A DNA stretch of 64,000 bases from Cladocopium goreaui (taxonomy: Eukaryota > Sar > Dinophyceae > Suessiales > Symbiodiniaceae): positions 121,829-185,828 of the forward strand of contig CAMXCT020001034.1 of NCBI GenBank assembly GCA_947184155.2. The letters run 5' to 3'. The notes below the pieces were generated by a model. That model had not been told where the DNA came from. It worked only from the letters and a program-made list of their open reading frames with translations, and ran no database searches. Of the stretch, positions 19,524 through 44,600 are shown in pieces. Position 1 is the first letter of the stretch; the number at the start of each line of letters is the position of its first letter. Position numbers and translations under genes: made by a program.

Positions 19524-19577
19524 CGGGAATCATTGTACCGTACAATTTTGTGGTCGCTGTTTCATTTGCTGAAGGGA

Positions 19578-22924: not shown

Positions 22925-22971
22925 ACTTTAGAGGAGGCCAGTGGAGCAAGCCCCCCCTTCGCGATCCTCTC

Positions 22972-26218: not shown

Positions 26219-27472
26219 TCACGACCCCTGGTTCTTGCTATGGTCAACTGCTTTGTGGGAACCATAGCAACCTTTAACACGGCATTGATGGACCCTGCCG
26301 CAAGAGCCATCACAGTCACCACTATTCCATGCGAAACAGAGCTCGCGACCATCCGGTGTCCTCCAAGCAAGGCTGAGGCCTTTCAACCGCTGGTCGAGGG
26401 GCTTGCCTTTCGACTTGCCCTTGGAGTGCTTTCCTTTCCCTTTTGTAAAACTTGAAGTCTGTTTGCCACTGAAACCTCCTTTGCTGTTGAACCGTGGCCA
26501 CTTGTTAGGTTGTTGTTGCGGCTCCGACAACGCTGACCTGAGTGCCACCGGCGTGGTGAAGTACGCCTCTTTCAAGTCAGGATCCCTGATGACAGCAAGC
26601 AATGACTCACTCAATGTGTGTCCCTCCAAGACCTTTTTCATGGCCTCTTTCCTGAGCCTCTGTTCGTAGGCAAGCACTATCGACCATTCTGGCCGAACCT
26701 TCTGTTGTGACGCTTCTCCAGAAGCTGCTGGGATCTGAATTCCAAATACCCGATCCCCCAAAATATACTCAGTGAACTTCAAGAAAGGCTCCATTGCCAA
26801 TCCATGCAACCAGTGTTTGGCCTTGTAACGTGAAGCCATGCACAACCAAGTATAGGCCTCGACCTTCATGGTTTTCCTGTACTCTTCGGTTGTCGCCGGC
26901 ATTTTCGCCTTGGCTTTCGTCCTGGTCACTCGGATGTGCCCTGTGTTGTCAACAGCCGACTGAATAACAGAATTGCTTGAAGACTGCTTACTCAAAATCT
27001 CATCAAGGGGTGCTGCTGTAGGTTCGTTGCATTCAGTTTCCTCTGCCTTGATCGCAAGGTAGTCCGGTGAAGGACATTCTGAATCTCCTAGGACTCCATG
27101 AATCGCCTCCACAGCACGTAGCATAGCCTGCCTCTCATGGATCTGAAGAACACGTGGCTGCCCTAAAACTTTGGCTTCCGCTTTGAGTTCAACTTCTTTT
27201 GACATGTACTCCTTTGCAGTTTCCCATGCAGCTACAATTGAAGCAATCTGAGATCTACGCTCTGGGGTGTCAGCCACGATTGCAAAGTCCTGCAAACAAG
27301 ATGTCCTGATGGACGCCCTGTCATCACCTAGAGCAGTGAACTTCCTGAGATTTCCATAGTGCCTGGCAATTGCAACTTGGTGTTCCAACATCACTCCCGA
27401 CTCTCCAAGAATGAATTGTAAGTCAGAATCCATGTTCGTCTGAACATACTGTCTCTGTGCAACTGGGTCCAT
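26219..27472 (-). CDS. YR retrotransposon gag-like protein
   Basis: Start chosen at ATG 27470-27472 (MDPVAQRQYVQTNMDSDLQF); the frame is open for 65 more codons upstream without an obvious better start. It has helical N-terminal and middle parts, a basic Lys/Gly/Ser stretch (KGKGKHSKGKSKGKP) and a terminal Cys/His cluster (CFAWNSGDCDGSCGRVHQC) like nucleic-acid-binding gag fingers. It ends in TGA and is followed in frame by the methyltransferase/RT ORF, so a gag-pol readthrough is possible. Confidence 0.75.
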   Translation of the reverse strand: MDPVAQRQYVQTNMDSDLQFILGESGVMLEHQVAIARHYGNLRKFTALGDDRASIRTSCLQDFAIVADTPERRSQIASIVAAWETAKEYMSKEVELKAEAKVLGQPRVLQIHERQAMLRAVEAIHGVLGDSECPSPDYLAIKAEETECNEPTAAPLDEILSKQSSSNSVIQSAVDNTGHIRVTRTKAKAKMPATTEEYRKTMKVEAYTWLCMASRYKAKHWLHGLAMEPFLKFTEYILGDRVFGIQIPAASGEASQQKVRPEWSIVLAYEQRLRKEAMKKVLEGHTLSESLLAVIRDPDLKEAYFTTPVALRSALSEPQQQPNKWPRFNSKGGFSGKQTSSFTKGKGKHSKGKSKGKPLDQRLKGLSLAWRTPDGRELCFAWNSGDCDGSCGRVHQCRVKGCYGSHKAVDHSKNQGS

Positions 27473-28157
27473 GGCTCGGTCAAGTGACCCACCCGCGCGG
27501 CGAGAGTGAAAATGAAAAAAAAAAACACACAACAGAAATGCCCTATGCCTCAAACCTGGCGCTGGGGTCAGAAGATCTAAGGCCCTAGCCACAAAACTGG
27601 CATTGGGGTCAGGGGGACTAGAACTGGTAAATTTCCTGCTGGTTTCGGCCGGGGCCAGGAACCCCAAAAAAGCCGAGATGTTGTAAAACTCGGTTTTTTT
27701 TCAAGTTAGATCCTACTCACTCAAATGAAGCTGCCTGAGCACTGTCGTGTTGAATGACTAGATGGTACCCTGAGGTCTGAACCATCAGTCACGGACAATG
27801 TCTGAACATGTGTCAATCCGCCCATGTTGTGTGCCGCGTCTAAACGCACTTTCATGACATTGGCCCCCCGTAATCGATTCTCAAATGCAAAAAACATGCA
27901 ACTCCAAACAACATCAGAAATAACATCCAAAGAATTGCAATGCAATCGCCAACATGCAGTGACAAAACCCGGCAACCTAAGAAGCCTCGAACGAAAGCGA
28001 AAGAAAAAGGAAAAACCGAGCACGACAGACCTCCTACCTAAGAAGCCTCGACCGAAAAAGAAAAGAAGAACCTCAACACAACGACCGACAGATAGCCAGA
28101 TGTCAAAACATCCGTCCCAAATCTGCCCATGTTTTCAATCCACTCGGACTGCACTGA
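27473..28157 (-). other. YR retrotransposon: region between YR and gag
   Basis: About 690 bp without a convincing minus ORF except the open extension of gag (27473-27667). It contains A/G-rich plus-strand tracts (28000-28080). Possible leader or promoter for gag-pol. Confidence 0.5.
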
Positions 28158-30206
28158 TCACAAAGGAACTTCATCCATGTCATTTTCTGAGGCCGTGGAC
28201 GTTGATGAAGCTGTCGACGAGGACTGGTCCCCATTCTCACGACCACATTCTGCAACCATTTTCTTCTTACATGCTTGGCACACTGAATCAAAATCATCAG
28301 CGGTCACTTGGTCTAAATATGAAACTTCGCAACACCTGTCAGGCTTGACAAAACATCCACTGAGATGCAAACGCCTCAAGCAGGTTCTTCGAGAGACTGT
28401 GATGAAGTACTTCGCAGAGTGGACTTCGTCTGCAGCTTCCCTGTGGGTCATGTCGGCAACCTTGGCTGCCAAGTCCGTGTCATCGCCATCTCCATCTTCA
28501 TGGTCATTCCAATCCCCATCAAGAATGGTCAACGTGGGGTAGATACCTCCAAGTGACTGTCTGCCTCCCCAATCAGAGAGCACTGAATGCCTCTTCTTGA
28601 TGCGATTGGGGTTCGCTCCAGCTTTCTCCGCTGCATCACACAGCCTCTGAATGGGTTCATCTTCATAGTAGACTTCTTCCAGTCCTTCAACTAGTGACCT
28701 GTTGACGGCCTTCTGGATCTTGAAGACCACCTGTCTTGATGTCCTGACATATTCCTCTGATGAAGTCATGCCCATTGACCACCGTCCCAGAAAAGCCCTC
28801 TCATCGCGAGAGAACCCAATGACTGCAGCAATCGAGGTCAAGAAATTCCTCGCACTGTGTCCTGAGAAAAATGATTCCAATCCATCTGGCAATAAAAGAA
28901 GGTGGGGCATCAATTCCCATCCAATCCCAGAGCGCTTCGGACAACTGAGTGTGCTCAGCAACTTCGCAATCAAAGAACTGAGACCCGACGGTGTGACAAA
29001 TTTCCGTCTCACCTTCGTCCAATCCTTGCTGGGCTCCATCACCATGTAGTCCCTGGGAAAGCTGAATTCATCTGACTCCCAGATGTTGAAACCACACCTC
29101 AACCAATCTTCTCCAGTCAAGGAAATGGTGCGAAAAATGTGCACCGCCACTTCTTTCTGAACCTTGTCTGGACCAGTCGTCTTCGACTTTCCCAAGATCA
29201 GCTTCAGACCAAAATTCGAGAGGAAGGAGCGCCTGGGAATGATCGCCTGAACATCGTCGCATCTCATGGCGCCCCAAATCATCACGAGGATCACCCATGC
29301 CAATGCCCTGGAAAAGATCGTTGCTGCTTCTTCAACAACCAAGAGCTCCAATGCGATCACCATCGCAACTGTAAACATCTCCGCTGGTTTTCTCGGCGGT
29401 GAATCCTCACCGAGCTCTGCTGTCCACGACTTGATGTGTCCCTTCCACAATGGATCATCAGAAATCCTTGCAGAGTCTGGCACCCGTCCAAGTTGCTCCA
29501 ACATACCCAGAGTGATGCTCAACGACTCTGGAACTGTCCTACCACAACCGTTGTCGACCCTGTGCTGCATGTAATCGATGGCATCCTTCACAGATTGGGG
29601 AAAAAGATAACCCCGATGCATCTCCAGCCACTTCTCAAACGGCTTCCAGACCTTGTACCTGGATTTCAAGGTGTTCGCCCTCCTTGCAGCAAAGATATGA
29701 ATCCAAGCAGAATTGGCATCGTCCAGAGTCTGAATGAGAGCCACAATCGGCAGCTGTGCATTGATCATCACCTGGGCCAATAACAAGGAATACTTCTTCC
29801 TTTCCGAGTCAAACTTCTTGGACCGAACGTCAGGGGCATCCTCCCTATACTTCTTCTGCTTCCGCTTCGAATGCATCTCCAAAATGCAATGAACACTTGT
29901 TTTCGTGATGCGTTGATATTCATCTTGTACATTCAAAACATCTGGCAGGGGGAGCACATGCATTGCAGATGAAACCGTTACCAACCTCACCCGCTTCAAT
30001 GGCCTGCTGACTTCTGCCTTCCACTGCAGCAAAATTGCAGTAGCGTTCCGCTTTTCCTCATCGACCATATGAGGGAATGCCTCAACCAGCATCTCTTCAC
30101 AGTCTGCCTCCCCATCAAATGCTGCGTCCAAACGCAACGGAGACACAAAGACTCGCTGCAGAAAGCTGAGCAACCCTGGTTCGACAGCAGGCCATGCACT
30201 ATCCAT
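28158..30206 (-). CDS. YR retrotransposon tyrosine recombinase
   Basis: First ATG is 30204-30206 (MDSAWPAVEPGLLSF); 682 residues. The catalytic set is visible in order: Arg in WGAMRCDDVQAI, Lys in GKSKTTGPDK, HxxR in FSGHSARNFLTS, Trp in LGRWSMGMTS and Tyr in SSEEYVRTSRQ. This is the integrase of DIRS-group elements, joining a circular DNA intermediate to target without duplication. The N-terminal 250 residues are the expected SAM-like core-binding region (KSRYKVWKPFEKWLEMHRG). A C-terminal acidic and Cys/His part follows. Position as the first ORF of the element is unusual. Confidence 0.9.
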   Translation of the reverse strand: MDSAWPAVEPGLLSFLQRVFVSPLRLDAAFDGEADCEEMLVEAFPHMVDEEKRNATAILLQWKAEVSRPLKRVRLVTVSSAMHVLPLPDVLNVQDEYQRITKTSVHCILEMHSKRKQKKYREDAPDVRSKKFDSERKKYSLLLAQVMINAQLPIVALIQTLDDANSAWIHIFAARRANTLKSRYKVWKPFEKWLEMHRGYLFPQSVKDAIDYMQHRVDNGCGRTVPESLSITLGMLEQLGRVPDSARISDDPLWKGHIKSWTAELGEDSPPRKPAEMFTVAMVIALELLVVEEAATIFSRALAWVILVMIWGAMRCDDVQAIIPRRSFLSNFGLKLILGKSKTTGPDKVQKEVAVHIFRTISLTGEDWLRCGFNIWESDEFSFPRDYMVMEPSKDWTKVRRKFVTPSGLSSLIAKLLSTLSCPKRSGIGWELMPHLLLLPDGLESFFSGHSARNFLTSIAAVIGFSRDERAFLGRWSMGMTSSEEYVRTSRQVVFKIQKAVNRSLVEGLEEVYYEDEPIQRLCDAAEKAGANPNRIKKRHSVLSDWGGRQSLGGIYPTLTILDGDWNDHEDGDGDDTDLAAKVADMTHREAADEVHSAKYFITVSRRTCLRRLHLSGCFVKPDRCCEVSYLDQVTADDFDSVCQACKKKMVAECGRENGDQSSSTASSTSTASENDMDEVPL

Positions 30207-30260
30207 ATAGAACCATGAATCTACGTCCAATCAAGATTGGAAAGTGAAACGCCCCCACCT

Positions 30261-30715
30261 ACCTCAAACTGATTTTGAAGCCAGCGCTTCTCGAAATATG
30301 TAATGTTCGAAATGTCTTCCAAGAACTTGATCAATGCTGCACCCAAACTCCAATGAAACTCTTTCAGTAAAAATTCAAAGCAGCACAGCAAAATCCAGAT
30401 TGTAACTGCAGAAAAATAAAAACAGTCTCAACTGTTTCTGTCGTTTCACATGAACTCCACAAGCAGCACCGAAAATAAACCACAAGGAAACTGAACTCAC
30501 AAAAACGAAATGAACTGTCAACTTCACGAGGTCTGACATGAAGTGTTGTACCAGGCACCAAGGTTGTAAACTGTTGAAGGCACTGCCAACAATCAACAGG
30601 TACATCAACACAGTAACACCAACGGAATCTAGAAACCATCAACTCAGTGATCCCCACCCTCCCACCCGGCCAATACTTGGTTTCACATAGACACACTGAG
30701 CAAGCTCAGTGATGC
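30261..30715. repeat. Split direct repeat B, outer copy
   Basis: Same as 22069-22523. The right edge at 30715 (GATGC) meets host sequence TTTGTGGTGG. Confidence 0.95.
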
Positions 30716-30745
30716 TTTGTGGTGGCAGTGTGTCGGATGCTGCAG

Positions 30746-31647
30746 GTGGAAGAGGCATCGGCTGCCGAATTGGAAGAACTTCGCCTTGGAGCTGTTTCAG
30801 AGGGCAAGGAGTGGCTCAGTCGTGCTTTGTCGGAAATGTCAGCTCGTCAGCTTCGAGTTCTGGCTGCTGCGGGTGGTGTGGAGACACGATCCGGCAAGGC
30901 GTGGCTGCCTGTAGCAGATCTGCGCACCTCGTTGATGAAAGTCTTGGAACCTTCCACGGAGGTTGGGTTCAACCAAAAAATGTGTTGTGACATGAGTTGT
31001 TTTTGTGACCGAATTTGAATGTTTGTCACATGGTGCGATGTTGTAGGATGATGGTGGTTTTGTGGTGGCAGTGTGTCGGATGCCGTAGGTGGAAGAGGCA
31101 TCGGCTGCCGAATTGGAAGAACTTCGCCTTGGAGCTGTTTCACAGGGCAAGGAGTGGCTCAGTCGTTCTTTGTCGGAAATGTCAGCTCGTCAGCTTCGAG
31201 TTCTGGCTGCTGCGGGTGGTGTGGAGACACGATCCGGCAAGGCGTGGCTGCCTGTAGCAGAACTGCGCAACTCGTTGATGAAAGTCTTGGAACCCTCCAC
31301 GGAGGTTGGGTTCAACCAAAAAATGTGTTGTGACATGAGTTGTTTTTGTGACCGAATTTGAATGTTTGTCACATGGTGCGATGTTGTAGGATGATGGTGG
31401 TTTTGTGGTGGCAGTGTGTCGGATGCCGCAGGTGGAAGAGGCATCGGCTGCCAAATTGGAAGAACTTCGCCTTGGAGCTGTTTCACAGGGCAAGGAGTGG
31501 CTGAGTCGTTCTTTGTCGGAAATGTCAGCTCGTCAGCTTCGAGTTCTGGCTGCTGCGGGTGGTGCGAAGACAAAGTCTGACGGGATTTGGCTGCCTGTAG
31601 GAGAGCTGCGCAACTCGTTGATGAAAGTCTTGGAACCCTCCACGGAG
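30746..31647 (+). CDS. Exon-array gene, exons 7-9
   Basis: Exons 30746-30961 (subtype a), 31089-31304 (b) and 31432-31647 (b variant) continue the 216-bp phase-0 series beyond the retrotransposon. Exon 9 has changed residues in its second half (AKTKSDGIWLPVGELRNS), so it is older or diverging. Confidence 0.68.
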
Positions 31648-31775
31648 GTTGGGTTCAACCAAAAAATGTGTTGTGACATGAGTTGTTTTTGTGACCGAAT
31701 TTGCATGTTTGTCAGACATGGCATCATGTTTGTGACATACCAGGGATCGACAAACAAATATCTTCAACATTTGTT

Positions 31776-31825
31776 GCATCTCTTTAGGTCTCTGTAGGGG
31801 CTGTCCGTGAGATCTCGAGAATTGC
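31776..31825. repeat. Dispersed hairpin, long-loop type, decayed, in intron 9
   Basis: GCATCTCTTTAG (31776-31787) against CTCGAGAATTGC (31814-31825) pairs at 9 of 12 positions plus one wobble; the loop holds GGGGCTGTCCGTGAG. Confidence 0.55.
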
Positions 31826-31957
31826 ATAGTGATCATGCCAATTTTCGTTTGTGATGTAGTGGATCTATGTGTTATTATTTCATTGATATGCATGAGGAGC
31901 GGGGAAAAAATGTAGGATGATGGTTGTTTTGTGGTGGCGGTGTGTTCCATGCTGTAG

Positions 31958-32173
31958 GTGGACGAAGCATCGGCTGCCAAATTGGAAGAACTTCACCTTG
32001 GAGCTGTTTCAGAGGGTGAGGAGTGGCTCCATCGTGCTTTGTACAAAATACCTGCAGAGGAGCTTCGAGTCCTGGCCACTGCGGGTGGTGTGGAGACACA
32101 TTCCAACCGGAATTGGTTGCCTGTAGCAGAGCTGCGCAGATCGTTGATGAAAGTCTTGGCGACTTCCACGGAG
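31958..32173 (+). CDS. Exon-array gene, exon 10
   Basis: Again exactly 216 bp, phase 0, but the most diverged module (LYKIPAEELRVLATAGG, NRNWLPVAELRRSLMKVL). The donor GTTGGG is kept while the following intron is unrelated to the 127-bp introns. Confidence 0.68.
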
Positions 32174-32196
32174 GTTGGGTGCAATAAAAAAAGGCA

Positions 32197-32236
32197 TCTT
32201 GAAGTTTTTATAGGAGCTGTTTGTGAGATCTCGAGA
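32197..32236. repeat. Dispersed hairpin, long-loop type, in intron 10
   Basis: TCTTGA (32197-32202) pairs with TCGAGA (32231-32236), one T-G wobble; loop contains GAGCTGTTTGTGAG. Confidence 0.5.
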
Positions 32237-32325
32237 ATTGAATAGTGATTATGCCGGCAATTGTAGATTGTCGGCATTGCAAAAACGTCAAGTGCGGCTG
32301 TTTTTTTAATTTATTTTTTTAGCAG

Positions 32326-32883
32326 GAGCCGTGTCACGATGATACCCTTGCATCTGGTGCAAGTGTCTTGTGGGGCTGGCTGAAACGATGTTTGGAAAGT
32401 CCTGCGGCGCCTGATACTACATTGCTTCGAGATGCTGTTCCAGAACAAAAAGATCGCATGCGTATTTTGGCGGTTTTGGCCGACAAGACCATGGGTCAGG
32501 TGGAGGGATTGCATCTTTCGCTTGCTTCTTTGGATGCTCGTGTGGTGGATGCGACGTTGCCGCTTCTTGCTACTTTCGATGAAGTGCAGCAATCGTGGCC
32601 CAGCAAAGCTGTCACGGATTCTGTTGATTTATTGGATTTACCAGGTTACTTCGCCTCCATTGGCATGGAGCATTTGCTGCGGCATCAAGTCGTGGCATTG
32701 TTGTCCTGTGTTTTGCTGAGTGTATCGGAAGAAAGACGACTTCAATGGTGTCGTTTGGTGGGGTTCACCATCGACGCGGACATGTTGGAAGTGGCGAGCC
32801 GTTTGTGGGATGTCCACACACTTACAGCTGCTTGTGAATGGGACAGTTCTGGTGGTTATGAGGATCGTGACAATGTGGTGGAG
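32326..32883 (+). CDS. Exon-array gene, exon 11
   Basis: Acceptor TTTTTTAGCAG|G at 32325 and donor GAG|GTGAGT at 32884 define a 558-bp exon, phase 0 at both ends. It encodes 186 residues of helical protein (LWGWLKRCLESPAAPD ... MEHLLRHQVVALLSCVL ... ACEWDSSGGYEDRDN). The fold is not recognised. Confidence 0.65.
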
Positions 32884-32977
32884 GTGAGTGGTTGTCGAAA
32901 CTATTGTATGGCCTGCGTTAGTTTTTTTTTTCGTGTCTTGCCGGTTCGCGGTGGTTTGGTCTTTGCGTTGCTTGCAG

Positions 32978-33308
32978 GTGGTCCTTGGCATCCTGTGGGG
33001 CACGAAAGCGTTGGTGGTGGATGATGAGGGCGAGGTGCGCCGGCGTCGAGGTAAGTTGGATGCTGCAGACGCGACGTACCTGCGATGCCTGATGCGGAGA
33101 TATGGTTGGGAAAGATTTGACCAGGACGTGGAGGTGTGCTATTGGTCCGAATGTTTTCCATCTGCTCGCTATGGGAACAAGAAGTGTTTACAGTTTGCTT
33201 GGCTTTTGCTGACGCAGTTACTTCATCCTCGCCAGACGCCTGCATTGCAAGCTATGCGCTCACGTCACGATCCAGTGACGGTCGGAGAACTCCGTGATTC
33301 CAGGACGA
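32978..33308 (+). CDS. Exon-array gene, exon 12 (end uncertain)
   Basis: Acceptor CTTGCAG|G at 32977. The exon reads VVLGILWGTKALVVDDEGE ... CYWSECFPSARYGNKKC. A GT donor at 33309 and an acceptor before 33404 would give a short last exon ending at TGA 33451-33453. That overlaps the antisense Rep-like gene, so the 3' end is doubtful. Confidence 0.55.
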
Positions 33309-33352
33309 GTGCGTGTCGTTGTTGTGTGTTTTGTGTACTTTTCTTACCTTTG

Positions 33353-34439
33353 TCACCTTTGCGGGTCATCAATTTTGCACTCTTCCACTTTGACATTCTG
33401 CAGGTGCAATTGAAGTAGCAAGGACGAGCGCATATCTGCGATGTTGGGCGTGACGAACAAATGCGCAGAACCATAATGCCACCCAGCCGCATGTCCACGC
33501 AACCGGATCTGGCTGCGGTGCCCTTCCATGCCAATGATGCTCGAAGTTGCCTGAAGCACTCCTCCCAATGCTCGCTTCAAGGCCACATCCACCTGCGGAT
33601 CTCGCAGCAACTCCCTGAGGTCCGCATTGTCTCCATGCAATGCCATTGCCTTGAGCAATTGGTCCGTGTTGACTTCAGAAATAACACGACAATGTTTGCC
33701 AAAGCCACGACGCATCACATGCGCTTTCGTCGCACGCATCAACTGCAATCGACGCTGCACGTCGTACATCACTGGAAGCAACGTCTCCTGCCCGCATACT
33801 TGGAACAAAGGCGACAAAACTCAAAAACTGAAACCACCAAAACACAACCACCAAACCATCCTGGGAAAACAGAAAACTCAGCAACAATTGTATAAACCAA
33901 ATCCAAAGCACTGAAAGCGACCATCTTGGCAACAAGGCATCACCCTCACTGTAATGCAGTTCTTCCCGAAGCAACAAATATCGAAACACTTCTGTTGCAT
34001 CCATGTTGGCTTCACGCTTCAAAAAAGGCAAGCCATCACCCCATGGAAACAAATCCGGAAACGACATGCCCCAGGTGGCCGGATCAAACATCGACAGCGG
34101 TTCGTCTCTGGTCGGAACAACCAACTTGGAAGGTTTGACTTGGAACATAGCTGATTCCACATTCCGCTCATTTTCAGCCGTGCCACGGGCAATCTTCTGA
34201 ATTCTCCGAATTTTTTGAAGTGTTCGCCTCTCTTGGGCTCCTTCACGACCCAAAAGTTCACCAGGAACAGATGCATCCGGGGCCGGCATTTCATTGTTGA
34301 TGCGGTTGCGAAGCACATCGGCAGCATCGCTCCTTCGCCGCCCACCCTGTCTCACACAGACCTCCTCCACATCCTTCAACACACGCACCCACTTGTTCTG
34401 TTCATCCGCACCATCGTTCAAGCCAACAATGGAAGACAT
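33353..34439 (-). pseudogene. Helitron-like Rep N-terminal fragment (two exons)
   Basis: Exon 1 runs from ATG 34437-34439 to near 33930 and contains FDPATWGMSFPDLFPWGDG, a signature of the region preceding Helitron Rep domains. After an intron of about 130 bp, exon 2 (about 33800 to 33353) contains SSIIGMEGHRSQIRLRG and GSAHLFVTPNIADMR, matching the Helitron_like_N type. The HUH nuclease motifs and the PIF1 helicase that should follow are absent, so this is a truncated fragment or a domesticated piece. It is divergent to the RPA-like gene. Confidence 0.7.
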
Positions 34440-35074
34440 CAAATGACCTGCAGAGGTGGCTCTTGCGGCAGTTTGGTACCGGCCTGGGTTTTTGATGGAT
34501 GTGTTTGGTCTTGGAGTGAGTCAAATTCTCGCACATCGTTATAGAACTGTTTGCCTGGAAACATGTGTGGTATAGTGACGACTTGCGCATTCATCGCTGC
34601 ACCACGTGAACACAACGTGTCTTGCGCACACATCCGTTGATTTCGGGTCTGTGTTGGTTTGTGCATGTTTTGGGATATGTTTCGGATAGTTGTAAGAACT
34701 TGAACTAACTGTTTGTGGATGCTCATTATGAATTGCAGTTGTGTACTTGCACTTCCTTGCCAAGATGTTGTCCTGTCACGGTGTTTGCGTTGATGGCTTC
34801 ACGGTGTAGGCTCAAATCCATTGACCAATTTGGGCATCATGTGCAAGCAAGATGTGTCAACAAAAACGAAAACAGTTGCATGCAGAATGTCAAACAAGCC
34901 ACGGTTTTCTGTTGGGACTGTCCGCGAGACCGCGGCTTGTGCAAGAGCCATTGATTTCTGCAACATAGCGTAAAATCACTGCCAAACACGCACTGTTATA
35001 ATTTGTTTCTCACTTGCCTTCTTTGGTGCTGCATGCACCTATTCGCGGGCCTCTTGTCACCGCGGTCTGAAAAC
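34440..35074. other. Divergent intergenic region
   Basis: Separates the minus Rep fragment and the plus RPA-like gene and carries the hairpin at 34894-34940. No gene seen; a shared promoter region is likely. Confidence 0.5.
34894..34940. repeat. Dispersed hairpin with GGGACTGTCCGCG loop
   Basis: ACAAGCCACGGT (34894-34905) pairs with ACCGCGGCTTGT (34929-34940) over 12 positions with one mismatch, around a 23-nt loop. Confidence 0.75.
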
Positions 35075-37090
35075 ATGTCTTTGCAAGAAGTGACTTTGGA
35101 ACGCATTACGAAGAGCAACACCCACATGGTCATGGTGGTTTTGCGTCTGGTGTACCATGAAATGAAGCAGTTGCCTGGAAAAGATAAGGGCACCTGGTGG
35201 AAGTCGATCGTTCGGCTCGTGGATCAAAAGGGACAGGGACTCTATGCAGAGATCCGGGGATCTTCTGAGAGCGGTGTTCGCAAGCGGGCCCAGGAGTTTT
35301 ACCAACCCAAATACATCCAATTGACGCAAGCTGTTGCAGTGCAGAATTCACTTTTTTTGTCCGGTTTCTCTGCCGATGTCACGAACAAGGGCAAGGTGCG
35401 CGGCCTTTTCCCCACCGCCAGGTCCAACTTTGGTGTTTTGGCGGAACATTCCGAAGGAAAGGAGAGGGCGGATGTCATTGGAAAGGTGACCCGGAAGGAG
35501 ACGCCCACGATGAGAGTCCAAAAGATGACATTGTGGCTGAAGGATGAGTCTTTCAACGAACTGGCTGTGCATCTATGGGGAGGGCGTTTTGTTGCCAAGG
35601 GCAACGAAATCGATGTTGGCTCGGTGGTGCAGGTGGACAATGCTTTGTTGTCGAAGATCCCTGCCGGCATCGAGGCGAGCTGTGAGCACTGGATGGATAG
35701 CAGCAGGAATTGGTTCAGTGCTTTGCATGTCAATCCCACAGGCAGTCGTGTCAAGAAACTGAAGGCTTTGTCCGACACGCGGGGTGAGGCGCTGTCCGTG
35801 CCTTGGCTCCAGACTGCTTCACGTCGAATGGTGTCGGATGGCATGGAGAAGTTCATTTCGTGCTGCGCCACTGTATCTTCGTGCTCTCTGGCGCTTACGG
35901 ATGCGATGTTAGAGGCCGCTGTGTCGCGCTGAACTAGCTTGTAATGAACACGCTTAGTCCGTGTGATTGGGAGTCTTTCTTTGTTGATTGCTTGTTGTGT
36001 TTTCCCTTTCTTTATCATTATCTGTTGTCAGGCACAGCAAGAGATCATCGAAGTGCAGTTGAACTGCGTTTGGGTCACAGGCATCTTGGGGGATCCCATC
36101 TACACGGCATGCAAGAATTGCGCGACGAAGGTTGATTTGATGACCGGGCATTGCAAACGTCATGAAAGTCACAACTGCCAAACGATTCGAGAGGAAGAGG
36201 TATCCATCTTGGCCACAGTGACTTTGGCAGATCACACCGGTGAAGTTGACAGAGTCTTGGTGGATGGGGACAGGTTGCGGTTGCTGGCAAATGCCAAGAG
36301 CAAGGAAGATCTGGTCGCCCTCTTGACGAAGCGTGGTCCGCAGGCCGTGTGCTTTTGTCATCCAGTGGACGTCCGCTTGGCTACCAATGGCCGCAAGCCA
36401 GGCGGCGGCAGATCCAACTTGCCTGCTGCTGCGCAGGGAGTCCTCCAGTCGCAGGAGACGGATCAGGAGAATTTGCCCGAGTGTCAGTTTCAGGTGCTCG
36501 CCGCACAGCACGCTCTCTGCCAGAGGTATTCGGATGCACAGCGTCCGATGATCAAGAAGGTAGTTCGAGTGGAGAATCAGAGGGCGACGGGAATGGTGTT
36601 TCCGATCGCTTGCCCTCATGAGAACCTGTTGTTCTCTGGCTTCGGTACCAAGCTGCGAGCCGCGGCAATCTTTCCCAGCTATGTCACTGTGTTGGTGCGG
36701 GCAGAAGATGAGGAAGCCAAGATCGTTGAGACGGGCACGGGGGACGACAAGGTCATCATGCTGCAGTATGAGAAGGTGGTGGCAGTGGAGGCGTCGTTTC
36801 CCAAGCATTTCCGGGCGGAGGCCTTTTGCCAATTGCAGCAGGCGATTCGCTTCAACATGTGTGATGGCAATGTGCATCTTGTCATCGGCAAGGTGACGGC
36901 GGAAGATGATGGCTCCGACATGGTTTTGGTTACGGAAAGAGTCTTCAAATTGCAATCGGAGGAACAGGTGAAAGCGATCATGGCCGAGCGTGCCGCCATC
37001 GCAGCTGTGCAGATGATTTCTTCGAAAAAAAGACACGCCGTCGACTTGGTTGAGGAAACGCCCTTGAAAGTGAAGAGTGCCAAGTGGTAG
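35075..37090 (+). CDS. RPA1-like single-stranded DNA-binding protein
   Basis: ATG 35075; exon 1 to about 35920, GT-AG intron (about 35921-36031) phase 0, exon 2 36032-37090; about 635 residues, near the usual RPA1 length. Exon 1 has an OB-fold-like portion with IGKVTRKETPTMRVQKMTLW and LAVHLWGGRFVAKGN, as in RPA1 DNA-binding domain B. Exon 2 has a domain-C-like zinc ribbon YTACKNCATKVDLMTGHC (CxxC ... CxxH). RPA-like proteins coat single-stranded DNA in replication and are also carried by some Helitrons; a Helitron-like Rep fragment lies just upstream. Cellular versus transposon origin is open. Confidence 0.65.
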
Positions 37091-37124
37091 TTTTTTTTTG
37101 GCCAATGCAATATCATTGCTGACA

Positions 37125-37154
37125 GTGATGCTACAGGGACTGTCCGTGCATCAC
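37125..37154 (+). repeat. Gene-end hairpin, 16-nt loop
   Basis: GTGATGC (37125-37131) and GCATCAC (37148-37154) flank loop TACAGGGACTGTCCGT. Starts 35 nt after the RPA-like stop. Confidence 0.85.
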
Positions 37155-37266
37155 GCAGCGTGATTCTTTGCACCACGGCTTTTTTTTTATTTCAACCAGC
37201 GTGGTATTTCTGGCTAGGAAAGATCCATGCTGTGGAGGGTCGCAGAAAGTGTGTTGCGTCCTGAAA

Positions 37267-37441
37267 TGTCTGTTAAACACAGAATTTTGACGGGCTTGAT
37301 GCTTCAGGGACTGTCCGTGCATCGAGCGAAAAAGCAAGGAAAATGGTGCTATCCGTGCCATCATGATAAGCATTCGTTTGCGTGCTTTTGTTATTCTTTG
37401 TTTACAGTTTCACCGTACAGAGAAAGTCGTGCAACTGAGGT
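37267..37441. repeat. 175-bp dispersed repeat with hairpin, copy 1
   Basis: Roughly 90% identical to 39419-39592. Starts CTGTTAAACAC and ends near GTGCAACTGAGG. Hairpin arms GCTTGATGC (37294-37302) and GCATCGAGC (37319-37327), with one T-G pair, flank a 16-nt loop TTCAGGGACTGTCCGT. Confidence 0.88.
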
Positions 37442-37742
37442 CACAGAGCAGTGTGTTGCGTCCTCAAAAATGGGGCGATGCGACTTTCTTTCAAAGGATG
37501 TCATCGACAGCATCATGGCATTCCACTGCAGCATGGCACCACTTTTGTAGAAGTATGCATAAATCAATGATATAACGTCTGTTTTTGACAGCATCATGGT
37601 ACCGAGCTTTTTTGGGCTATTCACGCATAGGTTTGCCAGTGATTTGTTGATGGATGTTGCATTTCCGGCTTACATGTCCTAGATTTGTCTTTTTTGCTTT
37701 TTGTTATTGCCCTGTCCCTCGTTCCCTGTCTTTCCGTGCAAG

Positions 37743-38180
37743 ATGGAGCCGGCAGAGGGCAAGGCCGCTGAGGCCGAGGAAATGCCACCCAAAGCAGGTG
37801 CCTGCCAGCCTCGACATGGGCATGAAAGAATTGGTCGTAAAGATTACGGGCCAGCAGCTCTAGTGCTCAGGTCCATCAAGCGGTGCAAGGTGCTTATGAA
37901 CCTTTCGCTCAAGTACCGCTGCCTGGGTGAGACTGTGCTGGCGGAAACTTTGCCGGATCCCACTGCGTGTGCATCCAAGAGAAAATGGGAGACAGCAATA
38001 CAGAAGGCACGTGAGACTCTTCGACTCATGGCCCCAGATGTCGATCCTGACACAGATGTCGACATTAGCCTTGCTGGCACTGATGCACTGCCATGTATTT
38101 CAGCAGGGTGTGAGCTGGAGCTTGCTGAATCTGATGGCGCGCCAGATTTTGATGGCATGCCTGATTTTCAATGGATTTGA
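37743..38180 (+). CDS. Unknown 145-residue protein
   Basis: ATG 37743. Acidic, Ala- and Glu-rich start (MEPAEGKAAEAEEMPPKAG), a basic middle (ERIGRKDYGPAALVLRSIKR, SKRKWETAIQKARETLRLM) and an acidic tail. No domain is recognised. It sits between two gene-end hairpins in the same orientation as its neighbours. Coding potential is moderate. Confidence 0.45.
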   Translation: MEPAEGKAAEAEEMPPKAGACQPRHGHERIGRKDYGPAALVLRSIKRCKVLMNLSLKYRCLGETVLAETLPDPTACASKRKWETAIQKARETLRLMAPDVDPDTDVDISLAGTDALPCISAGCELELAESDGAPDFDGMPDFQWI

Positions 38181-38252
38181 ATCTGGAGGAACTGCCCGTG
38201 TACTTACAAGCTTTGCACTTCTCGCATAATTAAGTCCTGTCGTCCTGTCGTT

Positions 38253-38284
38253 CTCGATGCTGCAAGGACTGTCTGTGCGTCGAG
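38253..38284 (+). repeat. Gene-end hairpin, 16-nt loop
   Basis: CTCGATGC (38253-38260) and GCGTCGAG (38277-38284), eight pairs with one T-G, loop TGCAAGGACTGTCTGT. Starts 73 nt after the preceding stop. The rest of 38181-38689 holds no gene that I can see. Confidence 0.85.
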
Positions 38285-38689
38285 CGACGTGATTCTCATA
38301 CAAATTCGCCTGCTTTGCGGCGGTTTGCACGTTCGGCACAAGGAACTGCAATGCCTGCCTGCACGGTGCTTCGAAAAATGTAAGAGTGCGTTGACGCTGT
38401 CTGACACGGGCAAGTTTCTTGGACGGGCGTGTTGCAGTTCCATTTGTGAAGTGTTCGTCTTGCAATGCAGTGTCGCACTTGGAAATAAGTAATGCAGTTG
38501 GTGATCATGAAAAAATGCGGTGAGGCATCTCTCTGAAATGCATGTTCTGATCTTGCAGTTTATACCTCTAAACTATTGTTACATATATGATTGACGGCAT
38601 CATGGCATGTAGTAATTTTCATGGGGAAATTACTTGGTGTGGACTGCAGTTTTAATTGCTTTGACGTCGGCGGGATTATAGCTGCTGAC

Positions 38690-39418
38690 ATGGAACCCGG
38701 CGCCTTGCATCGTCGTCTGGATGACATCTATCTCCATCGAAGAGAACGGCCTGGTTTGATACTGTCAGCTGTCCATGAACACGCGTCGCCGAACTTGGCG
38801 GAGACACAGCCCATGTCGGTAGAGATTTGTTTTCGTTTGAGCATCTGGCCTCTCCAGCAGCTGAGTGCCCTTCCGGAGTTTCATTTTCTAGTCGACATGG
38901 ATCCACGGGATGCCAGTGTCGATCTCTTATACCAAGAGCATTTACTGCAGTGGATGACTGTGGTGGATTTACTGGGCGACTTGGTTGGTCGCATAGAAAC
39001 GCATCATGGAGGACGTTGTGACAAAAGATACATTTGCATCGCAGCGGAAGGTCATCGCCGATTCGCGGCTCGTGAGAGTTTGACTATTCTTCGTGAGCTT
39101 GCGGATGAGAATTCTGTGGTCTCTCTTGTTGCTCGCCCTTCCAGAGTTGGTAAACAAATGCTGGCTCAATTCTGGCTTCCCAAGCTTGACGCAAAGTTGG
39201 CAGCTCCAGCGTTGGCCCGACTGGACTTGCATTGTTTCCAGGTGATTTTGGCTTGGATCTCACTTTGCGGGTGGTACAACCTATGCAGAGTGAATAGACA
39301 GTGGAGCCGCTGGCTTCGTGCAAACCCGACCTTTCGATCTGTGGTGTCGGATGCGCGTTGGGCCAAGGATCCCGAGTTGCTGTCCATCCAACGGGAGGTG
39401 CGAGCCAACGAGGAGTGA
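38690..39418 (+). CDS. F-box-like protein, 242 residues
   Basis: ATG 38690 (MEPGALHRRLDDIYLHRRE). N-terminal 160 residues unrecognised, with a possible alpha/beta region (FHFLVDMDPRDASVDLLYQE). The C-terminus (LDLHCFQVILAWISLCGWYN, then LCRVNRQWSRWLRANPTF) resembles an F-box helix set, which would bind SKP1 in ubiquitin ligases; position at the C-terminus is unusual. Family call is tentative. Confidence 0.5.
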   Translation: MEPGALHRRLDDIYLHRRERPGLILSAVHEHASPNLAETQPMSVEICFRLSIWPLQQLSALPEFHFLVDMDPRDASVDLLYQEHLLQWMTVVDLLGDLVGRIETHHGGRCDKRYICIAAEGHRRFAARESLTILRELADENSVVSLVARPSRVGKQMLAQFWLPKLDAKLAAPALARLDLHCFQVILAWISLCGWYNLCRVNRQWSRWLRANPTFRSVVSDARWAKDPELLSIQREVRANEE

Positions 39419-39592
39419 TCTGTTAAACGCGGAATTTTTGACGGGCTCGATGCTACAGGGACTGTCCGTGCATCGAGCGAAATGCAATGAAAAGGATGTC
39501 TTCCGTGCCATCATGATAAGCATTCGTTTGCGCGCTTTTGTTATCCTTTGTTTACAGTTTCACCGTACAGAAAAAGTCGTGCAACTAAGGAA
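39419..39592. repeat. 175-bp dispersed repeat with hairpin, copy 2
   Basis: Begins directly after the F-box-like stop. Hairpin arms GCTCGATGC (39445-39453) and GCATCGAGC (39470-39478), nine Watson-Crick pairs, loop TACAGGGACTGTCCGT. Where copy 1 has T-G this copy has C-G. The rest of 39593-40038 has no clear gene. Confidence 0.88.
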
Positions 39593-40038
39593 GGTCATCC
39601 ACTGCATCGCGGTACCGAGCTTATTTGGTGAATTCTATGAGATTTTCGATATGAAAACTCGTGAACATGTGAGATCATCGGCATTATGGTAAGGAGCATG
39701 TTTTTTCCGTATATGCTCGTACAGCAGTTTCTGTTACGCATGCCATGGAGGAGGGCTGGAAACAGCAGTGGTTCTACAGCATCATGGCATCGAGTTTCGG
39801 CTTGCAACTCAGTGTCCGACTTGGAAGTAAGTACTCAGCTGGATCTTAGCGCACCTCTGGTTGAAGGCATCGTTGCATGCTGTAACCGTAGATTAAAACA
39901 ATGATCTGTAGTTGTGTTTGCATTGTTGTCGTTCGCGTGGCTTGCGGATGAATGACCTGTAGTTGTGCATTGCGGATCTGTTAAATCGCTTGCGTCGTGT
40001 TCAAGGTAGGAAACGTTTGTTCGATCACAGTGGCAGCC

Positions 40039-40770
40039 ATGACCACTAGCGCTCGTGAGTGGAGAGCGGCGCGCGAAGAAGATATCAGGAAGGCTTACGC
40101 CGACAAAGAATGTTGGACTGACCTTGACCGCATTACCTGTTGGCACCCTTACAGTTTCGGGTCCATAGAGGAGTGGCCATTGGACGCTGCCGTGATCTGC
40201 AAACCTACGGATCGAGCGTCGGTGCTGCTTGGCAGCATCAAAGCGGCCTGCAGCTTGGAAGACATTTGCCAGGCTCTGTCGGTGAAGGTCACCGTGGTGG
40301 TGACCATGTGCGCAAATGAAATGGAGATTCGAGGCGCCCCAAAGGATTGGGCGCAGTATTTCCAGCAAGAAAATGTCTATCACGTCAAGTGTCATTTGGA
40401 AGACACGACATTGAAGCCGCCGCACCGTTGGGAGGAAAGAATCCCTGACTTGGTAGCTTCTTGTTTGGAACAGTGGAAAATTGTTTGTGGCCAACTCTGG
40501 AAACAGTCCATGCTGGCAGTGACCAGGGGCGAATCCATGCACGTGCTCTTTCATTGCTTTGGAGGCATCAATCGAAGCGTTGGGGCTTTATGTGCTTGGC
40601 TCGTCGTGGGTTACAACTACCCTGCAGAGGATGCCGTCCAGTTGCTGCTTAAGAAAAGACCTTCCTTGCGCCCTTGGCACAATCGCCCCTATGTCTTGGA
40701 GGCTTTGTGGCAGCTGGAAGGTTTGCGGGCCGAGTGGCACATGGAACTGAGCGCGGCGTGCACAAATTGA
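40039..40770 (+). CDS. Dual-specificity phosphatase-like protein
   Basis: ATG 40039; 243 residues. The signature HCFGGINRS fits the HCx2Gx2RS form of Cys-based phosphatases, here preceded by MHVLF and followed by a helix (VGALCAWLVV). An upstream acidic residue in VKCHLEDTTLKPP could be the general acid. After the loop come AEDAVQLLLKKRPSLRPW, typical of DSP domain ends. It would remove phosphate from protein or another phospho-substrate; the substrate is unknown. The stop is only 11 nt before the next hairpin. Confidence 0.7.
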   Translation: MTTSAREWRAAREEDIRKAYADKECWTDLDRITCWHPYSFGSIEEWPLDAAVICKPTDRASVLLGSIKAACSLEDICQALSVKVTVVVTMCANEMEIRGAPKDWAQYFQQENVYHVKCHLEDTTLKPPHRWEERIPDLVASCLEQWKIVCGQLWKQSMLAVTRGESMHVLFHCFGGINRSVGALCAWLVVGYNYPAEDAVQLLLKKRPSLRPWHNRPYVLEALWQLEGLRAEWHMELSAACTN

Positions 40771-40781
40771 TTTGCACCACT

Positions 40782-40811
40782 GTTCGCCTGGAGAAACTGT
40801 TCGTGGCGAAC
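40782..40811 (+). repeat. Gene-end hairpin, 16-nt loop
   Basis: GTTCGCC (40782-40788) and GGCGAAC (40805-40811), loop TGGAGAAACTGTTCGT. Part of a repeat of about 190 bp (40753-40935) whose copies follow. Confidence 0.85.
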
Positions 40812-40971
40812 GTGGTAGATCAGTAGCCAACTGTTGTTTGTCTGTAAAAATTGTTCGATCCTGTAGGGACATCGAAGAAATGGAGTGCAACAGGTGTTAT
40901 CTATGCCATCATGCTATCGAACTTGTTTTTGTGGAATCATTCACTGCGTACACAAACGAATTTGCACCACT

Positions 40972-41001
40972 GTTCGCCTGAGGAAACTGTTCGTGGCGAA
41001 A
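40972..41001 (+). repeat. Gene-end hairpin, 16-nt loop
   Basis: GTTCGCC (40972-40978) and GGCGAA (40995-41000), loop TGAGGAAACTGTTCGT; within repeat copy 40944-41120. Confidence 0.78.
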
Positions 41002-41486
41002 CGTGTTACATGAGTAGCCAAGTGTTGCTTCTCTGTAAATATTGTTCGATCCTGTAGGGACATCGGAGAAATGCAGTGAAACAGGGTGTCGTCCAGGCCA
41101 TCATGATATCGAACTTGTTTTGGGCCCGGAATCATTCACTGCGTTCACTTGTTGTTTTTTGGATACCAATTTTTAAACATTTCCAATCCAAAGCTGTGTT
41201 TGCGCACCTTTGTTTGGAAGTGAGGTCATACACGGCATCATGGTACCGGGCTTATTTGCTATGTCAAACTCCGGAGTCGTGTTTTCAGTTTCGAATTGAA
41301 AGAGCAGATGCTTCGCATTGGATTGTGTGTTATACATTTTTTTGCCTCAGATGTAAACGCATGGACCAGATGCTACATCTGCAGCATCATGGTACCGACT
41401 TTTGCTTGGAAGCAGCTTGTGGGAGCTGGAAGGCTTGCATACCGGGTGGCACTGAGTGCAACTGGCGCAAATTAATCTGTAGCACT

Positions 41487-41516
41487 GTTCGTCTGGAGAG
41501 ACTGTTCGTGACGAAC
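41487..41516 (+). repeat. Gene-end hairpin, 16-nt loop
   Basis: GTTCGTC (41487-41493) and GACGAAC (41510-41516), loop TGGAGAGACTGTTCGT. The C-G pair of the two earlier copies is T-A here. Part of repeat 41465-41680. Confidence 0.87.
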
Positions 41517-41529
41517 ATGCAAAACCAGT

Positions 41530-41563
41530 ATGTTCGTCTGGAGAGACTGTTCGTGACGAACAT
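41530..41563 (+). repeat. Gene-end hairpin, 16-nt loop, tandem to previous
   Basis: ATGTTCGTC (41530-41538) and GACGAACAT (41555-41563), nine pairs, same loop as the copy 43 bp upstream. Confidence 0.87.
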
Positions 41564-41689
41564 GCAAAACCAGTAGCCAACTGTTGTTTGTCTGTAAAGT
41601 TTTTTTTCCATCCTGTAGGGACATCGGAGAAATGCAGTGAAACAGGTGTTATCCTTGCCATCATGATATCGAACTTGCTATCATTCACA

Positions 41690-44600
41690 GCATTCTTGCA
41701 CGGAGTTCTAGTTTCTTACGGAGCCTTTGTTTGTGTACTTTTGCATTTTGTAGCATTTCCATTGCGACTATGTTTGCCCACCTTTGTTTGCAACTAAGGT
41801 CATCCACGGCATCATGGTGCCGAGCTTCTTTTGTATCTCAAAGGTCTTTGTGTGGAAATGCGTCTGACCTCTCTCTCTCTCTCTTATCTCTTCCCCCTCT
41901 TTCTCTCTGTGGTTCCACGACACATGTCATCTGATGCCCTTTACCCAATATTCTCTTCTTGATCAATTTTACTTTTTTACATCATGTCTTTCCATAGCTC
42001 ATTTAAAATTCACCAATAAAATTCACCAACTATTCACCGACTATCTTTTACGACTACCATACTCAGAGCTGCTTGAAACACATTTTTTTCGCTCTCGGGC
42101 CAACCGTCGTCTAGTTCCATCCAACGCCGTATAGCTTTCGCCAGGTCGTTCAACATGTTCCAAGCATGTTGCATATGAGATTAATTAATTAATTCACGCA
42201 GGGGCCAAGCTGTAGGGCCGCAAAAGTCAACTGGTAGAGGACCGATACATAGTCCTATTCACTTGTCACGTTCCAGAGAACAAAGACCGAAACACAAAGA
42301 ACCAAAAGCAAAAACAAAATAAAAAACAAACACATACAACAGCAACCCACACAAAACACAAACAAAAAAACACACAACCACACAGCAGTGACGTGACAGG
42401 TCCCAGTTATGGGTGAAAAAGATCTGTTGAGGCCAGAGGTGATATCTTAGTATCAGCTCGGCGCATGCAGATGACAACTTGTGTGCCATGTCGACGCAGG
42501 CCCATAAAAATCAATAAAAGCAGCCAACCTCAAAATCACAATGGGTCACTTCAGAGGGTGCAGAAGCAACAAAGCTCAATGCGGAAACCAGGGATCCCCC
42601 CAGCCAGGATCTTCGAGATCTCAAAGAGCAGCCATCATGGCATAAAATTACACCCAGACACTTTGAAGCAAACACCGACAACGCCGGGTCACAACAAAGT
42701 GGTGAGAAAACTACCGCAGTGAAACAGGAGAGTGAAACGTGATCTAAGGTGAAAAAGACGGCGCGGTAACAGCACTCAGGTACACTCAGAATCCGCTCAG
42801 TACTGCTTTTCCAATCATCATATTGCAACGAAATTATGAGTAGCACCACTATGCTAGTGCTCTTGCAATGTATCTTCGTGATATGGGAGATTGTACCCGT
42901 ATATGGGAGCTGCAGTGCACTCTGGCGGTATATACCGCTTTCAAAACTGATTTTTTTTTTCCTCCGGTTTGGCCGATTCGCACTAGGCACGGTCCTTACA
43001 ATAGCGTAAGCGGTGAAAAGCATTCAGAAAAAGGACTCGTGTGGTCCAAAAACGCGGGCAAATCATCACATCAACACAAACAAAAAACCAAAAAACGCAA
43101 CCAAAAACGACCCGCAAATCCCCCAGCCAGATTTGCGTTTCGCCATAAAGCAAACAGCGAAGCAACAAAGAACGGGGCCGGGCCCAAACAAAAACCAAAC
43201 CAAACAACTTGAGATTTGCCTTGAATACAGTGACCTAAGCCACTGTATCGTCATCAAAAACATGCAAACTAATTAAGTGCGGCAGAGCGAAAAATATAGT
43301 ACACGATCACCCAGATTCTCATCGCCCATACAACCGTGACTGTCACTCCAGCTCTCTGAAAGGTAGGCAAAGCAGGAATAGCTGACAGTACAGCTCGTAC
43401 CAGTTGCCATTCTCATTGTCAAAGTTGGTCCTATGATGATGAGTGAAGTTGGAGTCCAGTCTCTGTAGTAAGATACTGCCGCAGTGGTGATGTGACTCAA
43501 TACCCCCCTCAAGGGGGGTAGGGATTGACAGCCTGTAGGTCATGCAGGACAATAACTGTAATTCATCACAGATGCTGTCGTATCGTAGGAAGCCAAGAGG
43601 ACCTGAAACGGTGCCAATGGTGAAAGATCTCCGCAGATAAAAAGGATCCTCTCCGTAAGGTCATTGCAGATGAATAAAATACACTCGTGCAGAGGGTAGG
43701 CTTAAGCAAAGAAAGATTGCTACTCAGCGACCTGTACTCAATTGCGCCGCTCGCACATGGCAATCGTGCTCAAGCCACAAACTTGAAGAGGTGGCTAGGT
43801 TTGCTGTACCAGCACCAGATTGACTAGCAGGATTCACAAGGTGTCATCGTCCCAGCAAAAACTGCTGCAAGTCAGATGTTCCAGAGGTTCGCAGTGCATC
43901 TCACATAGGGCCACTCTCCCCTAGAGTGAGCCATGAGCAGAATCACAACGTCCCATCAGCGCACCGATCCATGTTGGCAGGCTTTGCTGCACTAGGGCGC
44001 TCCAGACTGAACAGCAGGAAGCACCACTGGACAGCGCCAGTAGTGCTCACTGCAGTACAGCCTGGTCCATGGCTCTACCGGGGATCTACCGCCCCTCCCG
44101 GAGAAATCGCAGAAACAAAACAGAGCGAGAAGGGCCCTCCCCAGACAGCCAACGAAAAAGCCACATGAATCAAACAGCCCAAAACCGCAAAAAGACATAA
44201 AGGAGGTAAAACGGAGAGGGGGGGACGGTGACAGGAATCTGCCCCACCGCAAACGAATTCAGAGTAACTAAAGATAAGACCAATGTAGTTAAGGTGAAAT
44301 GACAGAGCAATTATGTAGAGCGGTAACCTCAGTATCCAGGCAACAGGTAAACCAGAAGACACAAAAACCACAAAAGAGAACCCTGCCATCATGGGGGAAA
44401 GCAAACCACAAAAGGGGGGAGAGGCCAAGACAAAACACACACACAACGACACCGGCCACACAGAAGGAGCGAGGAGAGGAGCCAGGAGGCAGCAGAGGAC
44501 AGAGGGAGAGGGACACACCCGCACCAGAAGGGGTACAAACGTGCCTTAGCGGAGTTCAAAAAAGGGGCCAAGGATCATACTATGATGAATACCTCAGTGA

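Follow-up and report, generated by a model that had tools for sequence, protein, structure and literature searches.

A 64,000-nucleotide (nt) stretch of the genome of the dinoflagellate Cladocopium goreaui (contig CAMXCT020001034.1, here C1034; the whole stretch is called the window) carries a family of hairpins in which a near-fixed loop sits on paired stems of free sequence. These hairpins are an internal part of a mobile element, not a repeat that landed beside host genes, and the element is, judging from its sequence, a copy of a giant Helitron2/Helentron-like rolling-circle transposon. We propose, at a probability of about 0.55, that the hairpins are a cis-acting, protein-bound RNA signal of the element, with a part in 3′-end formation, stability or shared control of its messages. 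The analysis suggests that what is new here is a family of cis-acting hairpins linked to the individual genes of a giant Helitron-like element; the literature titles searched, among which subscription papers were mostly not covered, held no description of such a hairpin.

Structure of the hairpins and their position relative to genes

An earlier note on this DNA had reported eight hairpins with a common 16-nt loop and covarying stems. All eight were recovered on the plus strand at 37125–41565 with the loop and stems as described, and a search of both strands of the window for ACTGT..GT with a stem of at least 4 found nothing beyond them. When the eight (h1 to h8) were aligned without gaps, standard pairs occupied 92.7% of 96 cells and both sides had changed in 10 of 12 pairs, while sliding the partners by 1–3 columns reduced pairing to 29–49%. 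Covariation held on part of the five measures applied: none of 500 shuffles attained the covariation score or the percentage paired, but two measures were attained, the number of doubly changed pairs by 8 of 500 shuffles and the number of pair types by 140 of 500. The eight are also not eight independent events, because h2/h4, h5/h6 and h7/h8 are recent relatives, which leaves about four independent stems.

Inside the 16-nt loop lies a second, 3-bp helix, in which loop positions 5–7 pair with 12–14 and close an ACTG-type tetraloop. In this register all cells of the eight hairpins are paired (100%), with two of the three pairs changed on both sides. RNA folding closes the outer stems and gives the 5–7/12–14 pairing in h1, h2 and h4, part of it in h3, a slid form in h5, h7 and h8, and a different fold in h6.

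Eight copies proved to be an undercount, since a covariance model and looser scans added six more, for a window total of 14, all on the plus strand, which is the element's gene strand (Table 1). A scan for the loop alone returned 16 plus-strand sites, 14 of them with a stem (13 without a bulge), and a single minus-strand site with none. The stemless plus-strand loops lie at 34539 and at 38184, the latter directly behind the stop at 38180. The near-fixed loop consensus is NNNN-RRR-[A/G][C/A]TG-YYY-GN, including the 3-bp inner helix; ACTGT and a final GT, described earlier as invariant, are so in the original eight but not in the wider family, which also has GCTG, AATG and loops that end in GA, with stems of 6 to 16 bp.

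Over all retrieved loci and the element in the window, 186 loop matches yielded 49 distinct hairpins at 85 places. These were selected for purine–pyrimidine complementarity at seven inner positions, a rule that is symmetric for G·T and A·C, and 0 of 86 loop matches in reversed sequences passed the same pairing test. Among the 49, G·T mismatches numbered 65 against 13 A·C (runs of at most 10 pairs; 40 against 8 in the inner seven pairs). Stepwise changes were seen in the homologous hairpins of L034, L036 and family B, where GTTCGTC/GACGAAC, GTTTGTC/GACGAAC and GTTTGTC/GACAAAC hold C-G, T-G and T-A at the same pair, and in family D, where G-C in one set stands against T-A in the other (L031/L032 against L033). 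Twelve representative stems were 98.8% paired, compared with a mean of 53.6% and a maximum of 82.1% after shuffling; the 98.8% is a description and not a test, because the arms were picked as paired, and the really different stem families number about 10 rather than 12, because two family pairs share an arm.

Strand and pairing go with the element. In five element stretches, which share homologous parts, loop motifs counted without any stem requirement numbered 56 on the gene strand, 48 of them with at least 6 of 8 pairs, and three on the other strand, none of them paired to that degree; in the window outside the element, 0 of 6 had at least 6 of 8 pairs. When the window and the copies on C105 and C748 were scanned more loosely, 36 matches appeared on the plus strand, none on the other and two in reversed sequences, and two of the 36 (window 11556 and 32836) look like chance. 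Throughout the 1.1656-Gb assembly, to which all genome searches refer, an 18-nt loop pattern matched 732 + 558 = 1,290 times, against 65 + 73 = 138 for its reverse. We examined 69 loop matches among the first 100 listed of the 1,290: all 60 in element copies had at least 6 of 8 pairs, and of the nine without homology to the element, five had 6 of 8 and four had fewer, down to 4, as chance would give.

The 10-mer ACTGTYCGTG alone is not enriched genome-wide (1,417 + 1,304 matches against 2,595 + 2,439 for the reversed control). A survey of 20 regions, five of them picked for a cluster of this 10-mer, and of eight loci found 23 hairpins, every one in the five cluster regions (on C2, C11, C25, C55 and C57). 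Only these five of the 28 10-mer loci, all of them element copies, had hairpins, and the idea of a general mark of host gene ends found no support; a sixth 10-mer locus, L024, has homology to the element's minisatellite and to a stretch beyond the element, but to nothing else. Searches of a viral contig collection (two patterns, one protein alignment) and a genome contig collection (one pattern, one alignment) found no relatives, and no Rfam family attained its gathering score anywhere in the window. A protein search with the open frame that crosses hairpin A2 returned four matches, including the window's own, all of which keep the loop frame. Shorter, TTCGATCCTGTAGGGACATCGAA-like hairpins follow B hairpins at 40851–40925, 41042–41116 and 41603–41677, with a flank that aligns to that of A2, and a second repeated motif, CATCATGGTACCGAGC-like, occurs at 37504–41828 in intergenic stretches of the element downstream of hairpins (repeat families D7 and D8).

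Position relative to genes was assessed in the C105 copy (L029 and L030), which contains nine genes defined by open reading frames (ORFs) and 17 hairpins. Eight of the nine genes have a hairpin starting 11, 13, 27, 35, 36, 37, 70 or 73 nt past the stop. Random placement over 6,778 non-coding positions of C105 put an average of 1.56 genes within 80 nt of a hairpin and attained eight in none of 20,000 trials (P < 5e-5); the six of nine genes within 40 nt and the eight of nine within 120 nt were each attained in one of 20,000 trials. An element of constrained structure placed just past stops, as the earlier note described it, is supported by these eight genes and by the C748 transposase gene, behind which three tandem hairpins with a different stem and a loop ending in A begin ~116 nt past the stop. 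An additional ORF in L009 has a hairpin 10 nt past its stop. Where hairpins follow genes of the element, the distance is thus usually 10–120 nt. Of the distances first given for the window (35, 73, 27 and 12 nt), the last is 11 nt when counted to the first stem base.

Ankyrin and RPA-like genes agree over 167 nt (87%) that take in their final ~16 codons, the stop and the flank with the hairpin, and the exchange breakpoint lies inside coding sequence, ~50 nt before the stop; because of this common 3′ end, an acquired gene can take over the signal. Hairpin-bearing pieces also move inside the element, as seen from a ~180-nt segment with a family C hairpin that is inserted in one transposase intron and missing from seven paralogous introns; the insert resembles 18753–18967 and has AAAAAAT at its right edge. 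Two other readings of the surroundings were dropped: the gene with family C hairpins in its introns, taken for a host gene, proved to be the transposase, and a 2.5-kb insert between the RPA stop and the hairpin in L012, taken for an inserted gene, shows repeat-like frames and no gene.

The Helitron-like element and its genes

Five places, on C2, C11, C25, C55 and C57, align to window 17.0–42.1 kb with differing internal losses and unrelated flanks, from which we take the element to span ~17013–42114. Left ends read TTTTT^CCCGAGAGCG and right ends CGCTCTCGGG-CCAACCGTCGTCTAG^T, where ^ marks the boundary. The exact 25-nt left end occurs 262 + 250 = 512 times genome-wide and its reversed control not at all. 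In the end searches the best 40 of 669 and 40 of 828 candidates were scored (99–100% identity), and 20 left and 20 right ends, not paired by copy, were read; their flanks are unrelated to one another. TTTTT precedes 20 of 20 left ends, but it and the first T past CTAG prove nothing, because both were in the queries; the second base past CTAG, outside the query, is T in 16 of 20. Hairpins at both termini are a mark of Helitron2. The candidates here, at the 5′ end CGAAG/CTTCG around a loop of 4 nt and at the 3′ end a fold of 3 bp, are no more stable than shuffles, and for want of stable terminal hairpins we call the element Helitron2/Helentron-like and not a Helitron2 member.

C748 carries, all in one orientation, a left end at 40541, a Rep domain at 51712 and a right end at 75070, with 34.5 kb between the ends; with 8 kb of it read and the right end taken from the matches listed, this is presumably one unbroken copy. 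Of 330 genome-wide candidates for Helitron_like_N, 150 were scored and 145 of these matched, with other Helitron families probably included. The domain lies on the right end's strand ~23 kb before it in C748, C2042, C2024 and C418, 13 kb before it in C922 and 40 kb in C2223.

In C120 and C242 the tandem-exon gene that begins at window 19590 continues into the Rep domain, which matches PF14214 (Helitron_like_N) at E 1.7e-13 in L050 and contains an HPH motif by eye. In the window copy the transposase gene is broken by a transposon and an inverted piece and no Pfam match to this domain was found; a suspected Helitron_like_N in the minus-strand frame 33675–34442 likewise had no Pfam match. In C748 the transposase gene appears to end in a Pif1-like exon (L051; PIF1 E 3.9e-4, 20.5 bits, curated cut-off 25.9). 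Helentron transposases carry a fused AP-endonuclease; the present transposase gene was read in parts. Relatives of this predicted helicase exon occur in Skav (73%), Durusdinium trenchii (58%) and Symbiodinium microadriaticum (45%); several carry PF05970, those of Durusdinium are named ATP-dependent DNA helicase, and a PDB search with the exon gave no match of note. The best named relative of the window's phosphatase-like protein also bears the prefix Skav, which we take to stand for Fugacium (Symbiodinium) kawagutii. Among five C105 gene models absent from the window, only the ankyrin gene has a Pfam match (E 3.5e-28).

Helitrons are mentioned in Symbiodinium genomes in the accessible part of PMC9087856. 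The published marks of Helitron2 and Helentron, in the accessible parts of PMC5148889 and PMC4067079, are asymmetric repeats, TTTT^T/C or TT targets and an RPA gene, with CTAG in proto-Helentrons. The present element resembles these three groups in the Helitron-type Rep domain and Pif1-like helicase of its other copies, in its asymmetric terminal inverted repeats, putatively T-rich flanks and CTAG 3′ end, and in a weakly supported RPA-like gene and cargo genes. It differs from them in being far larger, with many cargo genes, in having its 3′ inverted repeat just 15 nt from the end, and in the hairpin behind nearly every gene read, of which those parts of the two papers make no mention.

Within the transposase gene, the nested transposon at ~21640–30700 (minus strand) shows by eye an RT-like YVDD in one frame and a methyltransferase-like SPPC in another, with no credible Pfam match. 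Two minisatellites stand beside the left end, at 17061–17600 (~30-nt units) and 17660–18364 (72-nt units), and also occur in other element copies.

Possible roles of the hairpins

A fixed loop, a free stem, wobbles of a single sense and closeness to the stop, as seen in these hairpins, are expected of a protein-bound RNA signal in the 3′ region. On this proposal the hairpin would lie in the 3′ untranslated region of the element's mRNAs or at their 3′ end, where a protein would read the loop on a helix of any sequence; once bound, the protein might define or shield the 3′ end or place all messages of the transposon under joint control, and gene fragments that join the element beside an existing 3′ module would take over the signal.

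The histone mRNA 3′ stem-loop (RF00032) has a 6-bp stem of fixed sequence and a 4-nt loop. It offers a parallel in that a small protein-read hairpin just past the stops of a gene set could unite 3′-end formation, but the present hairpin has a 16-nt loop with an inner helix, a free stem sequence and no Rfam match. Integron attC sites, at which a tyrosine integrase recombines, are hairpins of conserved structure and variable sequence that follow every gene in a mobile array and work on a single strand. Our hairpins share with them the kept structure, variable sequence, single strand and place behind genes, a likeness of layout and fold only. Dinoflagellate introner elements (PMC11453091; see also PMC7789003) are also mobile and intronic, some with inverted repeats, whereas many of these hairpins lie past stops, in a transposon with Helitron-like ends.

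Several observations weigh against the proposed 3′ signal. Some hairpins lie upstream of genes (18808, 19364 and 34896), one covers the apparent start codon of the transposase gene (19558), and others (31781, 32197 and relatives) are in introns inferred for that gene, so that 'only after stops' is wrong. One C105 gene, with no Pfam match, has no hairpin within 1,600 nt. The gene ends come from ORFs, and for eight of the nine C105 genes Pfam gives either no match or one below the cut-off; the placement test loses some force, since the hairpins were already known when the genes were defined. The element is repetitive and many hairpin copies are not independent. By inspection, AAAAG/C, reported as the dinoflagellate poly(A)-site motif in the accessible part of PMC3229502, follows some hairpins and not others.

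Because the strand bias fits single-stranded DNA equally well, the main rival, which we consider unlikely but worth weighing, is that the hairpins form in the strand displaced by rolling-circle transposition and serve there as sites of capture, pausing or cassette exchange, as in attC, with gene and hairpin moving together. A Helitron-type host with a Rep domain, hairpins confined to one strand, a module order that varies among copies and the hairpin-bearing 3′ end shared by ankyrin and RPA-like genes would all suit such a role. It sits less easily with the element's own 3′ terminus, which lacks this loop and folds weakly, with the single breakpoint seen, which falls in coding sequence and not at the hairpin, with the RNA-like preference for G·T wobbles, or with the tight position behind stops, which a DNA signal does not need. 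Less probable still is a non-autonomous, hairpin-bearing repeat that multiplies in the element and its introns, its pairing kept by its own mobility and without a role for the element. The ~180-nt intron insert, several tandem duplications among the hairpins and the A2 flank recurring behind B hairpins in the window point that way, but blastn within the window found no unit beyond the hairpin common to families A, B and C, no paired copy lies on the opposite strand in the stretches scanned, placement behind stops is strong, and all 60 loop matches in element copies are paired while the nine outside are unpaired or weakly paired. Of the mobile repeat preferring gene ends that the earlier note had set out as its alternative, what survives is that the hairpins lie inside a mobile element; they belong to it and did not land beside host genes.

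It is very unlikely that the hairpins are polycistronic separators which serve trans-splicing of the gene that follows and are not the 3′ signal of the preceding one. Dinoflagellate mRNAs are trans-spliced and the C105 genes lie close together on one strand, but the 11–73 nt to the preceding stop are kept short compared with the hundreds of nt to the next start (C105, by subtraction). Lowest of all we place transcribed small-RNA precursors that silence or control the element: a small stem with a conserved loop recalls them, and Rfam at a relaxed threshold over 37100–41700 returned a single match, to a microRNA precursor, but at chance level (E 2.1; 20.4 bits, where the gathering score is 90), on which the candidate was rejected; conservation lies in the loop rather than the stem, the opposite of a microRNA, and stems of 6–16 bp are too short.

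If the hairpins are a protein-bound RNA signal, a bolder version can be put forward tentatively, in which every gene of the element, native or acquired, would end in a cognate RNA hairpin read by one protein, as a private punctuation of messages. Acquired genes might then, just as tentatively, come under the element's common 3′-end and expression control, as in a eukaryotic selfish operon. In dinoflagellates, gene control is thought to be mostly post-transcriptional and poly(A) signals are obscure, according to the accessible parts of PMC12787238 and PMC3229502. Some 10 paired stems on one loop, with tandem copies and wobble intermediates as internal controls, make the proposed RNA–protein signal directly testable. 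The hairpins also offer a way to study how genes acquired by giant transposons stay expressed, and their sequence can serve as a mark by which to locate Helitron cargo in genomes of Symbiodiniaceae.

Feature coordinates and other observations in the window

Table 1 Features of the Helitron-like element in window coordinates
Feature	Position	Strand	Remarks
Whole giant Helitron-like element	17013–42114	+	Rearranged copy with nested transposons; homology ends sharply at both ends
5′ asymmetric terminal inverted repeat, CCCGAGAGCG	17014–17023	+	Preceded by TTTTT
Hairpin, family C	18808–18849	+	13-bp stem
Hairpin, family C	19364–19405	+	In a 400-nt duplicate (99%) of the 18808 copy
Hairpin, family D	19558–19597	+	12-bp stem; 3′ arm overlaps apparent transposase start codon
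Transposase (Rep-helicase) gene, 5′ part	19590–33367	+	Tandem exons inferred; colinear with C242 and C120; interrupted by a transposon at ~21.6–30.7 kb
Hairpin, family C	31781–31820	+	Within ~180-nt insert in inferred transposase intron
Hairpin, family C	32197–32236	+	Next inferred transposase intron; one A·C mismatch
Inverted transposase gene segment	33368–34452	−	98.8% to C242 and 99.4% to C120, opposite orientation
Hairpin, family E	34896–34938	+	Upstream of RPA-like gene; bulge and mismatch; by eye, covariance-model E 0.5 only
RPA-like gene	35075–37090	+	Two exons inferred; REPA_OB_2 weak, E 0.036, below curated cut-off
Hairpin A1	37125–37154	+	35 nt past RPA-like gene stop
Hairpin A2	37294–37327	+	Second in the 3′ flank of the RPA-like gene
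Small cargo gene	37743–38180	+	No Pfam match
Hairpin A3	38253–38284	+	73 nt past a stop
Cargo gene	38690–39418	+	F-box-like tail by eye only; no credible Pfam match
Hairpin A2	39445–39478	+	27 nt past a stop
Dual-specificity-phosphatase-like cargo gene	40039–40770	+	DSPc E 4.9e-7, below curated cut-off
Hairpin B	40781–40812	+	11 nt past phosphatase-like gene stop
Hairpin B	40973–41000	+	Within 190-nt tandem repeat
Hairpin B	41486–41517	+	Behind partial copy of the phosphatase-like gene's 3′ end
Hairpin B	41528–41565	+	45-nt tandem duplicate
3′ asymmetric terminal inverted repeat, CGCTCTCGGG	42090–42099	+	15 nt from element end
3′ terminus CTAG	42111–42114	+	In 20 of 20 retrieved right ends, picked by similarity

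Outside the element, the minus strand carries a LINE-type (long interspersed nuclear element) retrotransposon at 190–5941, with a reverse transcriptase match (RVT_1, E 1.2e-11) and a weak endonuclease match. Among transposon-like minus-strand frames at 6937–14118, the one at 8736–10136 weakly resembles DNMT3-type cytosine methyltransferases (best E 0.021). Two adjoining plus-strand frames at 56522–59681, 35% identical, look by eye like CRESS-type Rep proteins with a helicase P-loop; they gave a weak nSTAND3 match and no credible PDB match. A plus-strand frame at 62324–63040 is made of short, CDGVLVRSFGATHR-like tandem repeats.

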